Below are positions 52,865 through 55,763 of a stretch of 64,000 nucleotides of DNA, piece by piece (the first letter of the stretch is position 1; each line of letters opens with the position of its first letter). Below the pieces are notes generated by a model. That model saw nothing but the letters and a program-made list of their open reading frames with translations, made no database searches and had not been told where the DNA came from. The stretch is from Balneola sp. Its GTDB lineage: Bacteria > Bacteroidota > Rhodothermia > Balneolales > Balneolaceae. The position numbers and the translations under genes were made by a program. The stretch spans positions 124,001-188,000 of the forward strand of contig RHLJ01000005.1 of the NCBI GenBank assembly GCA_003712055.1. The letters run 5' to 3'.

Positions 52865-53251
52865 ATGAAATTTAAACCTTCAGGACTGAATCATATCACT
52901 ATCAGGGTAAACAGAATCAATGCATCCAAAGAGTTTTATGGAGACATATTAGGGCTTGAGCTAATCAAAACAATGGGGCAGAGCATGGCAGTATACGATA
53001 TAGGCAATGGGGATACCCTTGTTATTGTAGAAGCAGAAACCAGCTATGACCCCACTTCCAGAGACTTTAGAGTAGACCACTTTGGGTTTTATGTCGATTC
53101 TCCTGAAGAAGTAAATGAGATAGCTGAGTATTTCAGGGATAAAGAAGTAACGATAATGAGCGGTCCTGCTAACAGAAAAAAAGGGCGTTTTCTTTTTGTG
53201 GCCGATCCTGATGGGAATATGATCGAGTTCTTTTATGAAGAAAAAAATTAG
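52865..53251 (+). CDS. VOC-family (glyoxalase/dioxygenase-like) metalloprotein
   Basis: A 128-residue vicinal-oxygen-chelate protein with two beta-alpha-beta-beta-beta repeats. Candidate metal ligands are His in LNHITIRVN (about 9), His in VDHFGFYVD and Glu in NMIEFFYEE (about 122). The layout resembles glutathione transferase FosA or methylmalonyl-CoA epimerase-like proteins, but the substrate is unclear. Its last 17 bases overlap the downstream 2TM gene. Confidence 0.85.
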   Translation: MKFKPSGLNHITIRVNRINASKEFYGDILGLELIKTMGQSMAVYDIGNGDTLVIVEAETSYDPTSRDFRVDHFGFYVDSPEEVNEIAEYFRDKEVTIMSGPANRKKGRFLFVADPDGNMIEFFYEEKN

Positions 53252-53621
53252 TCAGGAAGAGTTATCTAATCTCCGAAAAAAAGAACAGGCTCGCAGAGAA
53301 ATGGAATATGAGCTACGGAGAGACTTGAAGCTGGGGGGCAAGCAAGAGGATATAAGAGAAAAAAGCTATTCGAATCATAACAGATTAGGAATCGCGGCGA
53401 TTAATTTCTTCGGTACACTCTTCATCCAATACATCATTTACTTTATAATACTTTTTAAGATCAGGTATTTCTTTAGGTTTTTTTTCGACATACATGTTGA
53501 GTATGCTTCTTATGTGTGGTCTTTACAAATATTTTTTTGGATTGCAGCATTTTGGAGTGTGTACTTAAAAAGAAGTATCCTTGATACCATACTGCAAAAG
53601 TATACTGATTTTATGACCTAG
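53235..53621 (+). CDS. 2TM-domain small membrane protein
   Basis: A 128-residue protein with a charged N-terminal helix (about 3-45, many Lys/Arg/Glu), then two membrane helices (about 57-75 and 93-110) separated by a short FDIHVEYA loop, and a basic end. This matches the 2TM domain often fused to LytTR or histidine kinases in Bacteroidota, here as a single unit. It is co-translated with the VOC gene. Role unknown. Confidence 0.7.
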   Translation: MKKKISQEELSNLRKKEQARREMEYELRRDLKLGGKQEDIREKSYSNHNRLGIAAINFFGTLFIQYIIYFIILFKIRYFFRFFFDIHVEYASYVWSLQIFFWIAAFWSVYLKRSILDTILQKYTDFMT

Positions 53622-53656: not shown

Positions 53657-54349
53657 CTAGAATTCATAGAATTCCTGATGATGTACTTCGAAGTAATCAT
53701 ACCTGTTCCAATCGGTGTTGATTACAATTCCTCCAAGTAGATAAAGTCGGATATCCTCTAAGTCGTTCTGTACTTGTTCTAATATGTCGTGCATTTTCTT
53801 ATGAATTGCTTCATAAGCCAGTTCTGTTACTTTTTTTAAAGGAACTTCGGCACTTTCAATCTCATTTTTATAACCACTCAAGTGCTGAATTACTCGTGCT
53901 TGTTGATAATCCAGAGGGAAATCTGTCGAGGGTGCTTTATTTTCCTTAATAGCATTTAAAGCTGCTACCAGTGAACCACAACAAGTAGAAGAAGCAAATT
54001 GGTTTTGACGGTTAACACGCCCTATTTGTCCATCCTCTGAGACTCCAATATGAGGACCATATAAAATCATAGCTGCTCCATGGGTAGGGACGTGGCTAAG
54101 AAAGGCCTTTAGTCCAGTGATCCCAGTAAATGGTAATCCCGAAATTCCTCCTAAAATAAAAGGGCCCGGGCCAGCAAAAAGATGGTAGAACTCAGGAAAC
54201 ATGTTATTTACCTCATCACTACAAAGCGAAGTAGCCCATAAACTGGATTTAAGTTCTAGACCCTTATCCATAAAATCCCTGACAATTTGGTCTTCAAGCT
54301 GTCGGATAGTTAGAGCATTAGGAAAGTGGTGGGGGATGGTTGTATACAT
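53657..54349 (-). CDS. LCIB-type (theta/beta-like) carbonic anhydrase
   Basis: A 230-residue soluble protein that aligns by eye with the catalytic domain of LCIB (limiting-CO2-inducible B) proteins of algae: ATSLCSDEVN, FILGGISGLPFTGITGLKAFLSHVP, LYGPHIGVSEDGQIGRVNRQNQ and SSTCCGSLVAA. Predicted zinc ligands are Cys43, His86 and Cys124; Asp45 is the likely counterpart of the beta-CA Asp. LCIB proteins interconvert CO2 and bicarbonate. It is divergent from the sbtA-sbtB operon across 153 bases, which supports an inorganic-carbon role. No signal or transit peptide, so cytosolic. Activity must be tested, as some LCIB relatives are inactive. Confidence 0.8.
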   Translation of the reverse strand: MYTTIPHHFPNALTIRQLEDQIVRDFMDKGLELKSSLWATSLCSDEVNNMFPEFYHLFAGPGPFILGGISGLPFTGITGLKAFLSHVPTHGAAMILYGPHIGVSEDGQIGRVNRQNQFASSTCCGSLVAALNAIKENKAPSTDFPLDYQQARVIQHLSGYKNEIESAEVPLKKVTELAYEAIHKKMHDILEQVQNDLEDIRLYLLGGIVINTDWNRYDYFEVHHQEFYEF

Positions 54350-54502
54350 ATATGCTTATTAGGCTACTTTTTTGGCGATTGAATATAGAAGATGTTTGAT
54401 AACATAGGTAAAAAAAACCGAGGGCTACCCAATTCAATAAATGGACTCATTTTTTTTTGTTAATTTTTGGAGCTTTAAAAACTGACTACATCTCTACTCT
54501 AA
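54350..54502. promoter_or_regulatory. Divergent promoter region of the LCIB / sbtAB module
   Basis: This 153-base AT-rich gap separates the start codons of the LCIB gene and sbtA and must hold both promoters. It has long A and T tracts (near 54409 and 54448) but no operator palindrome that I could identify. Shared promoter use implies co-regulation of carbonic anhydrase and bicarbonate uptake. Confidence 0.5.
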
Positions 54503-55459
54503 ATGGAATCTTTATTATCCAATTTTGCATCCCCCGTAGTTCTCGCTTTTGTACTGGGTATTCTGGCAAAGACGTTTAAAAGTGATCTCGAAATTCCTAA
54601 ACCCCTTTATCAGGGTATATCCATTTACTTGTTGTTGGCTATTGGTCTAAAGGGTGGAGTTGAGTTAAGTAAAACCCCATTTAGTGAATTTGTCTGGCCT
54701 GCAGCAGCAACACTTGCACTTGGAGTACTAACCCCTTTGATTGCTTATGTGGTGCTAAGGTACCTAGGGAAGATGGATTTGATTAATGCCTCTGCGGTAG
54801 CAGCTCACTATGGATCAGTATCAGCTGTTACTTTCATTGCTTCTGTTGCATATATGGAGGCACAGGGATTAACTCCCGAGGGTTTCATGCCTACGTTAGT
54901 TGCTATACTTGAAGTCCCAGGAATAATAGTGGCGTTAATGATTCCTCAGCTTATGGGCTCGAACAAAGGTTCTTTCAAAAAGGCACTACATGAAGTAGTA
55001 ACAGGAAGCAGTATCATACTTTTGCTGGGAGGTCTAACAATTGGATTTATTGCCGGCCCTGTAAAGTTTGAATCAGTTCAACCATTTTTCGTTAGCGGTT
55101 TTCAAGGTGCGCTAGTTCTTTTCCTGCTTGAATTGGGGATGGTTACTGCTCGTCGCCTTCAGGATTTGAAAAAAGTGGGATTCTTCCTTCTTGGATTTGG
55201 AATCATTGTCCCCATATTTTTTGGACTAATGGCCGTTTGGGTTGGACAACTGGCGGGGTTAAGTATTGCAGGCTCTGCAGTCCTGGCTGCAATGGTTTCC
55301 AGTGGATCTTATATTGCTGCACCTGCTGCAGTAAGAATTGCTTTACCCAAAGCAAGTCCAACTTTATATCTGACAGCTTCGTTAGGTATTACTTTCCCAT
55401 TTAACATTGCTCTGGGAATTCCACTATATCTTTATTTGGCTAATTTAATTGGAGGCTGA
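54503..55459 (+). CDS. sbtA: SbtA-type sodium-dependent bicarbonate transporter, compact form
   Basis: A 318-residue integral membrane protein with ten predicted helices in two inverted halves (about 5-150 and 165-318). Family motifs are ISIYLLLAIGLKGGVELS, AAHYGSVSAVTFIA, VAILEVPGIIVALMIPQL and MVSSGSYIAAPAAVRIALPKASPTLYLT. Cyanobacterial SbtA (about 370 residues) imports bicarbonate with sodium and has a long cytosolic linker between halves; here the linker (GSNKGSFKKALHEV) is only about 15 residues. It is followed one base later by sbtB. Bicarbonate as substrate is inferred from the family and from the neighbouring carbonic anhydrase. Confidence 0.88.
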   Translation: MESLLSNFASPVVLAFVLGILAKTFKSDLEIPKPLYQGISIYLLLAIGLKGGVELSKTPFSEFVWPAAATLALGVLTPLIAYVVLRYLGKMDLINASAVAAHYGSVSAVTFIASVAYMEAQGLTPEGFMPTLVAILEVPGIIVALMIPQLMGSNKGSFKKALHEVVTGSSIILLLGGLTIGFIAGPVKFESVQPFFVSGFQGALVLFLLELGMVTARRLQDLKKVGFFLLGFGIIVPIFFGLMAVWVGQLAGLSIAGSAVLAAMVSSGSYIAAPAAVRIALPKASPTLYLTASLGITFPFNIALGIPLYLYLANLIGG

Positions 55460-55460
55460 T

Positions 55461-55763
55461 ATGGCACTTACAGAATTATATTTAGTAACGATTATTACAG
55501 AGAGAATTTTCAGAGATGACATCATTCAGGAAATAAAATCATTTGGTGCTACAGGATATACATTAACCGATACAACAGGAGAGGGGTCCCGTGGTGTTAG
55601 AGCGAGTGATTGGGAAGGAAAGAATGTGAAAATTGAGGTGGTGGTTAATAAAGAAGTAGGAGATAAAATCATAGATGCAGTTGCTGACAAATACTTCGAA
55701 AACTACTCCGTGATTGCTTATGTATATCCCGTGAGGGTTGTTAGAGGAGATAAGTACATCTGA
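55461..55763 (+). CDS. sbtB: SbtB-like P-II signalling protein
   Basis: The start is the ATG at 55461 (100 residues): it has a GGAGG site five bases upstream, and an earlier TTG would add four residues. The ferredoxin-like P-II fold is evident, with T-loop region TDTTGEGSRGVRASDWEGKNVKIEVVV and C-terminal VYPVRVVRGDKYI. SbtB trimers bind SbtA and adenine nucleotides to gate bicarbonate uptake in cyanobacteria. This one lacks the C-terminal CGPxGC redox loop of many cyanobacterial SbtB proteins. It is coupled to sbtA with a one-base gap. Confidence 0.88.
   Translation: MALTELYLVTIITERIFRDDIIQEIKSFGATGYTLTDTTGEGSRGVRASDWEGKNVKIEVVVNKEVGDKIIDAVADKYFENYSVIAYVYPVRVVRGDKYI

Follow-up and report, generated by a model that had tools for sequence, protein, structure and literature searches.

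Carbonic anhydrases (CAs) of the LCIB family are represented by PtLCIB4 and by the Chlamydomonas proteins LCIB and LCIC, and SbtA, together with its P-II-like partner SbtB, has been described in cyanobacteria, e.g., slr1512-slr1513. Here we analyze a locus of Balneola sp. in which a gene for an LCIB-family protein is divergent from an sbtA-sbtB gene pair. The locus lies in a stretch of 64,000 nucleotides (contig RHLJ01000005.1, positions 124,001 to 188,000), which we call the window. An LCIB-family member outside eukaryotes has already been described in a cyanobacterium, according to a review (PMC5876011). A first-pass annotation of the window was aware of no described LCIB-SbtA-SbtB unit, and the open-access literature, judged mainly from titles and the openings of abstracts, likewise yielded no description of such a unit or of LCIB in Bacteroidota.

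The window's LCIB protein shares its Pfam family, its zinc ligands and its predicted fold with the algal proteins. Unlike them, it is a bacterial protein of 230 amino acids, encoded by the only PF18599 gene of a genome in which RuBisCO has no match. The sbtA-sbtB pair resembles slr1512-slr1513 in protein families, gene order and tight coupling. However, its SbtA is compact (318 amino acids, compared with 374 in Slr1512) and is changed at substrate-site residues, and its SbtB, which is closest to TTHA0516, has a shorter T-loop and no cysteine. The MpsAB/DAB systems of non-autotrophs likely have the same purpose, i.e., the supply of bicarbonate or CO2, and mpsAB and CA are reported to substitute for each other in Staphylococcus aureus and Escherichia coli (PMC6689103). 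The window's proteins are unrelated to MpsAB/DAB, however, and DabA is not found in the window's genome. In proteorhodopsin-bearing Flavobacteriia, sbtA has been discussed for anaplerotic carbon fixation in heterotrophs, but the main text of that article does not name carbonic anhydrase (0 occurrences; PMC5932025).

We conclude that the LCIB-sbtAB arrangement is real and is conserved, but patchily. Its parts are all known; their arrangement is new. With moderate confidence, we interpret the locus as a housekeeping module that supplies bicarbonate for biosynthetic carboxylations in a heterotroph. LCIB would interconvert CO2 and bicarbonate as the main cytosolic CA, SbtA would import bicarbonate, probably with Na+, and SbtB would, by analogy with the cyanobacterial complex, gate SbtA in response to adenine nucleotides. 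During CO2 shortage, cytosolic bicarbonate would remain available to enzymes such as phosphoenolpyruvate (PEP) carboxylase and carbamoyl-phosphate synthase, and the divergent region may provide shared regulation of the genes on its two sides.

Pairing a cytosolic CA with a bicarbonate importer would short-circuit the concentration of CO2 for RuBisCO, whereas bicarbonate-consuming enzymes would be well served by it, and we therefore read the unit as serving biosynthesis. The mutual substitution of an inorganic-carbon transporter and a CA in S. aureus is a precedent (PMC6689103). The gene content of the genome, which is 99.43% complete, argues for the same interpretation: PEP carboxylase, which the first-pass annotation had proposed looking for, is present, and the RuBisCO large chain (PF00016) has no match at E≤0.001. 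That annotation had noted that the window holds no carbon-fixation gene, and this now extends to the whole genome in a check limited to RuBisCO. If the interpretation is correct, the likely role of main cytosolic CA in heterotrophic bacteria falls, beside SbtA and SbtB, to an enzyme that is otherwise familiar chiefly from photosynthesis in algae. Three questions can then be put to the test: by what means such bacteria obtain their bicarbonate, whether it is indeed carried by the compact SbtA, and whether carbon sensing like that of cyanobacteria occurs in the absence of photosynthesis.

The three proteins of the locus

All three proteins score far above the curated Pfam cut-offs, namely 183.9 bits versus 25 for LCIB (PF18599; E=3.5e-54), 374.8 versus 27 for SbtA (PF05982) and 71 versus 25 for the P-II family (PF00543), so these matches are not due to chance. 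The grouping of three inorganic-carbon genes that had been noticed in the sequence is therefore sound. The LCIB motifs quoted at that time are present in the translation, and the one-base gap reported between sbtA and sbtB agrees with the coordinates, as the sbtA stop codon ends at 55459 and the sbtB ATG begins at 55461. A profile search of the window's genome found one match each to PF18599 and PF05982. NCBIfam assigned no family to the LCIB, SbtA or SbtB proteins.

Solved structures that match the LCIB protein are all of the LCIB family, with LCIB-domain proteins and PtLCIB4 ranking above LCIB and LCIC. The predicted Cys-His-Cys zinc ligands, whose absence would have spoken against the original identification, are kept. 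We counted conservation in 40 of the 41 LCIB genomes of the order (G028 was left out; alignment A1 comprises 35 of these 40): H86 and C124 occur in 40/40 sequences and C43 in 39/40, where the exception is a truncated row. H86 aligns with H88 of PtLCIB4, and D45 and R114 are conserved. Ser44 adjoins the first cysteine, as in wild-type PtLCIB4, which is active, while the solved PtLCIB4 mutant S47R has arginine at this position and presumably mimics an inactive algal form. The predicted model (mean pLDDT 92.2) is closest to PtLCIB4 (5b5y; Z 28.9, rmsd 1.9, 224 aligned residues), with lower scores against LCIB (5k5w; Z 21.4) and classical beta-CAs (Z 12.3 or less). Three purified LCIB proteins showed no CA activity, as reported in a review (PMC5876011). 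Judging from the aligned residues and the predicted model, the window's protein is likely active as a CA.

Genomes that encode LCIB rarely encode a high-scoring beta-CA. We studied 112 genomes of the order (Balneolales), and our distribution tests ignore kinship beyond genus- and family-level counts (no species tree was used). Matches to PF00484 were divided into two classes of beta-CA at 150 bits, a line of our own choosing, and we call the upper class Can-type. A Can-type beta-CA is found in 1 of the 41 genomes with LCIB and in 38 of the 71 others (p=5e-9); the contrast has p=0.006 at the genus level and p=3e-6 in the window's family (f1). The single PF00484 protein of the window's genome belongs to the lower-scoring class (L141:3392-4129, minus strand) and starts with a lipoprotein-type signal. 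Such a start, judged by eye and with a simple pattern, was present in 17 of the 21 proteins inspected from this class (that of the window's genome and 20 others), which occurs in 31 genomes. From its sequence, then, the only PF00484 beta-CA of the window's genome looks like a secreted lipoprotein. Because of this and the near-exclusion of LCIB and Can-type beta-CAs, LCIB probably acts as the main CA of the cytosol, in place of the beta-CA that bacteria usually have.

The SbtA protein matches the SbtA structure 7cye (E=4.4e-28), and lacks the stretch that corresponds to residues 166-213 of Slr1512, i.e., its cytosolic loop. In Slr1512, bicarbonate has been docked to S114, Y140, S324 and S327, each needed for full transport, and mutation of these residues cut transport to about 10-40% (PMC8352866). 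We compared 32 sequences, of which 26 are compact SbtAs (the window's included), 4 are canonical and 2 are homologues of another kind (L078, L120). In the alignment, the window's SbtA keeps the equivalents of S114 and S324 (S107 and S269) but differs at those of Y140 and S327 (V133 and A272). The compact SbtAs as a whole keep the former pair in 26/26 cases, while Y140 is replaced by V in 22 and by L in 4, S327 by A in 26/26, and D325 by Y. By contrast, the four canonical paralogues keep all four substrate-site residues. The two homologues of another kind also lack equivalents of Y140 and S327. Canonical SbtA-SbtB pairs, with SbtAs of 333-336 amino acids, occur in addition to the compact SbtA in G043, G003, G093 and G065 (L121-L124).

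For SbtB, the best PDB match is TTHA0516 (2cz4; E=1.3e-28), and cyanobacterial SbtB is next (E=1e-14). Its GEGSRGVR segment aligns with SbtB proteins, its T-loop is about five residues shorter than that of cyanobacterial SbtB, and since it has no cysteine, it lacks the C-terminal redox R-loop. This lack does not disqualify it as an SbtB, because the R-loop is absent in about half of 460 cyanobacterial SbtBs (PMC10991534).

Table 1. Features of the LCIB-sbtAB locus (window coordinates)
Feature	Position	Strand	Details and basis
LCIB-family carbonic anhydrase gene	53657-54349	-	230 aa; PF18599 match
Intergenic region between divergent LCIB and sbtA genes	54350-54502	.	153 bp; from gene coordinates
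SbtA-family protein, compact subfamily	54503-55459	+	318 aa; PF05982, PDB 7cye, residue comparison
GGAGG within the last bases of sbtA; likely ribosome-binding site for sbtB	55451-55455	+	Sequence
SbtB-type P-II-like protein with short T-loop, no cysteine or R-loop	55461-55763	+	100 aa; PF00543

Distribution of LCIB and SbtA

LCIB is found in 41, SbtA in 32 and both in 12 of the 112 genomes. Where both occur, the two genes are divergent and at most 3 kb apart in 11 of the 12 genomes; in the remaining one (G072) they are on different contigs. Nothing lies between them in six of these 11 cases (window included), while one has a LysR gene and four have a LysR gene and a gene for isocitrate dehydrogenase (IDH) in between. 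In the five relatives with direct adjacency, the spacer is 82-132 bp, compared with 153 bp in the window, and an alignment of the six genomes revealed no clear conserved motif in it. Many genomes with LCIB and no SbtA keep LCIB in the same housekeeping stretch, which in the window's closer relatives is flanked by genes for a glyoxalase-family protein and a DEAD helicase; several names of neighboring genes around LCIB in relatives are ones that we presume from their sequences. A scan of contigs with the window's protein located LCIB relatives at four loci in named records, three of Balneolaceae and one of Gracilimonas. In G034, sbtAB is intact and all that is left of LCIB is a stretch like its C-terminus (L077:1685-1894, minus strand), which is apparently a degraded LCIB gene. 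This genome has no PF00484 match; its assembly, split into about 590 contigs, is 82% complete.

A tree of 35 LCIB rows separates the SbtA-linked LCIBs of G003 and of G041/G042 from those of their own genera (approximately unbiased (AU) test, p=0.003 and 2e-6, respectively), an indication that LCIB and SbtAB travel together. The tree covers 35 of the 41 LCIBs, as G072, G066, G067, G081 and G047 were dropped because they were long or truncated, and G028 is absent. The two genus groups used in the test come from kinship labels, but were picked after a first tree of 49 rows had been viewed.

To look beyond the order, we drew 392 genomes evenly from the phylum; LCIB is encoded in 37, nine of them outside the order. 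SbtA was found in none of these nine (0/9) within the 17 kb fetched, and the idea that the LCIB-SbtA unit is general across the phylum was accordingly rejected. In two Bacteroidota outside the order (G351 and G363), a bestrophin gene (PF25539) adjoins LCIB on the same strand (L130:7515-9323 and L131:8256-10008). We did not find bestrophin at the remaining seven of these nine LCIB loci, using a two-sequence profile that matched only its two source loci. Chlamydomonas LCIB/LCIC interacts with bestrophin-like proteins (PMC6708349), and the neighboring genes in the two Bacteroidota hint at bacterial counterparts of this algal partnership.

A wider module in relatives

The LysR protein encoded beside SbtA in relatives has its best PDB match in 5y2v (E=5.6e-73), a "Rubisco operon transcriptional regulator" that we take to be NdhR/CcmR, and its next in CmpR. 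A LysR of the kind that governs the CcmR/NdhR regulon of Synechocystis thus adjoins sbtA in these organisms. Orthologues of it occur in 18 of the 112 genomes at E≤1e-60. This line is our own choice, and the LysR of G031, which lies near SbtA and scores 408 bits against a purpose-built profile, falls outside it. All 18 orthologues are within about three genes of an inorganic-carbon gene. Their partners are LCIB and SbtA in five cases, SbtA in five, SbtAB with IDH and carAB in two (one of which also has a beta-CA), IDH and a beta-CA in two, a beta-CA and carAB in one, and DabA in three. The carAB genes encode an enzyme that consumes bicarbonate.

The IDH is of the Thermus type (best PDB match 2d1c). 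A PF18324 IDH is present in 15 of the 112 genomes, all 15 of which have SbtA (p=3.6e-10, ignoring descent). In 10 of the 15, no more than about 3 kb separates the gene from SbtA or a CA, and in the other five it is far off or on another contig. The co-repressors of CcmR in Synechocystis are 2-oxoglutarate and NADP+ (PMC3401165), and co-repression by these compounds would fit the presence of IDH at the locus.

DabA is found in five of the 112 genomes, and adjoins a CcmR-like LysR in three of the five. In these three (G013, G018 and G035; L146, L147 and L148), the LysR gene is divergent from the DabA gene. Between them are an ORF of 479-482 amino acids, which matches Proton_antipo_M in L147, the one that was tested, and an ORF of 109-123 amino acids, which has no Pfam match in the two cases tested. 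A further observation concerns G064 (L149:6551-13015), where carA-carB and the genes for a high-scoring beta-CA and a CcmR-like LysR follow one another on the same strand, with carB extending over three ORFs. SbtA has no match in G064.

The first-pass annotation had suggested that the locus might supply bicarbonate for biosynthetic carboxylations. The occurrence of carAB, beta-CA and CcmR-like LysR genes at such modules in relatives supports this suggestion, while the import of bicarbonate that it presupposes is, in our estimate, only presumptive. We can tentatively go further and imagine, although we think this somewhat unlikely to hold in full, an inorganic-carbon regulon of Balneolota that is built like that of cyanobacteria but serves heterotrophy. 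A CcmR-like LysR that reads 2-oxoglutarate would control exchangeable components (LCIB or beta-CA, and SbtAB or DAB), together with IDH and carbamoyl-phosphate synthase, and would tie the supply of bicarbonate to the balance of carbon and nitrogen. LCIB would work directly with a membrane conductor of bicarbonate, as in algae (SbtA here, and bestrophin in the two other Bacteroidota), and the window would represent a reduced form of the regulon.

Alternative functions of the locus

It is important to consider several observations that weigh against the proposed supply of bicarbonate by all three proteins. If a bicarbonate pump and an active CA shared a compartment, CO2 would leak out. Two of the four proposed bicarbonate-binding residues are replaced throughout the compact SbtA subfamily, and for this reason we speak of an SbtA-family protein, not of a proven bicarbonate transporter; the earlier designation "bicarbonate transporter" was right about the family and went too far on the substrate. 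The presence of LCIB and that of SbtA are not associated among the 112 genomes, the 12 genomes with both being what chance gives (p=1.0), and 29 of the 41 LCIB genomes lack SbtA. We therefore rejected a statistical co-occurrence of the two genes, which are linked only in position; the association in relatives that had been anticipated holds for the neighborhood and fails for gene presence. Because of this lack of association, and because LCIB often stands alone in the same stretch, we regard SbtAB as an accessory to LCIB. Moreover, SbtA is missing from G033 and G079, whose LCIBs are placed in the tree among those linked to SbtA, so the link appears to be readily lost. As to the role of LCIB, its exclusion of Can-type beta-CAs is not significant within the two genera that hold both (1/9 versus 6/19; p=0.37). 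No alpha-CA match was found at E≤0.001 in the window's genome or in any of the 112 genomes, and gamma- and iota-CAs were not searched. Finally, the window's genome has no LysR orthologue at E≤1e-60 and no PF18324 IDH, so the richer module in relatives is evidence about purpose only.

Some of these observations would be expected if the compact SbtA carried another small anion, with a place beside LCIB that is inherited or has another purpose, and if LCIB alone supplied bicarbonate. The replacement of Y140, S327 and D325, which contrasts with the intact sites of the canonical paralogues, points in this direction, as do the four genomes with a canonical pair in addition to the compact one and the lack of association between LCIB and SbtA. 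Nonetheless, the compact SbtAs always keep the equivalents of S114 and S324, an SbtB-type partner is coupled to the compact SbtA, and there is repeated linkage to CA genes, carAB and the CcmR-like LysR; we regard another anion as rather unlikely. It is also conceivable that LCIB and SbtAB are alternatives to each other, such that LCIB is used when CO2 suffices and SbtAB when bicarbonate must be imported, with a switch in the divergent promoter region. This would agree with the divergent orientation in 11/11 neighboring cases, with the intact sbtAB beside an LCIB remnant in G034, a genome with no PF00484 match, and with the 10 of 112 genomes that encode SbtA while matching none of the CA families searched for. 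The reported interchangeability of mpsAB and CA in S. aureus (PMC6689103) is also consistent with it. However, the higher frequency of SbtA among genomes that lack a CA match is not significant (10/24 versus 22/88; p=0.13) and G034 is an incomplete, fragmented assembly, and we judge such a division of labor to be less likely than a partnership.

The restriction of PF18324 IDH to genomes with SbtA, and the proximity of 10 of the 15 IDH genes to SbtA or a CA, raise the idea that the module serves reductive carboxylation, i.e., that SbtA imports bicarbonate, CA makes CO2 from it and IDH fixes the CO2. Yet Thermus-type IDH usually runs oxidatively, the window's genome lacks this IDH, five of the 15 genes are far from SbtA and CA genes or on another contig, and an IDH running forward together with a LysR that senses 2-oxoglutarate would explain the link equally well, which makes the reductive role very unlikely. 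We find it similarly hard to credit that the locus buffers cytosolic pH or adapts the cell to an alkaline habitat. Exchange between bicarbonate and CO2 does move protons, but in relatives, the genes linked to the locus (carAB, IDH and a CcmR-like LysR) point to metabolism. The least probable function is a RuBisCO-type CO2-concentrating mechanism, which is suggested by the shared protein families with algal and cyanobacterial systems. With PF00016 unmatched in the genome, and since such a mechanism would in principle be defeated by the presence of CA in the cytosol together with a bicarbonate pump, we rejected it as almost certainly wrong. We thus continue to favor the supply of bicarbonate for biosynthesis.

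Two minor observations may be added. Across the order, PF00016 has matches in 64 of the 112 genomes. Most are low-scoring and are presumably RuBisCO-like proteins, while a score of 224.5 bits makes one match, in G016, a candidate for a true large chain. Next to LCIB, the window contains an ORF of 128 amino acids (53235-53621, plus strand) that has no Pfam match. Related genes occupy the corresponding position in G040 and G036, with LCIB on one side and the glyoxalase-family gene on the other.

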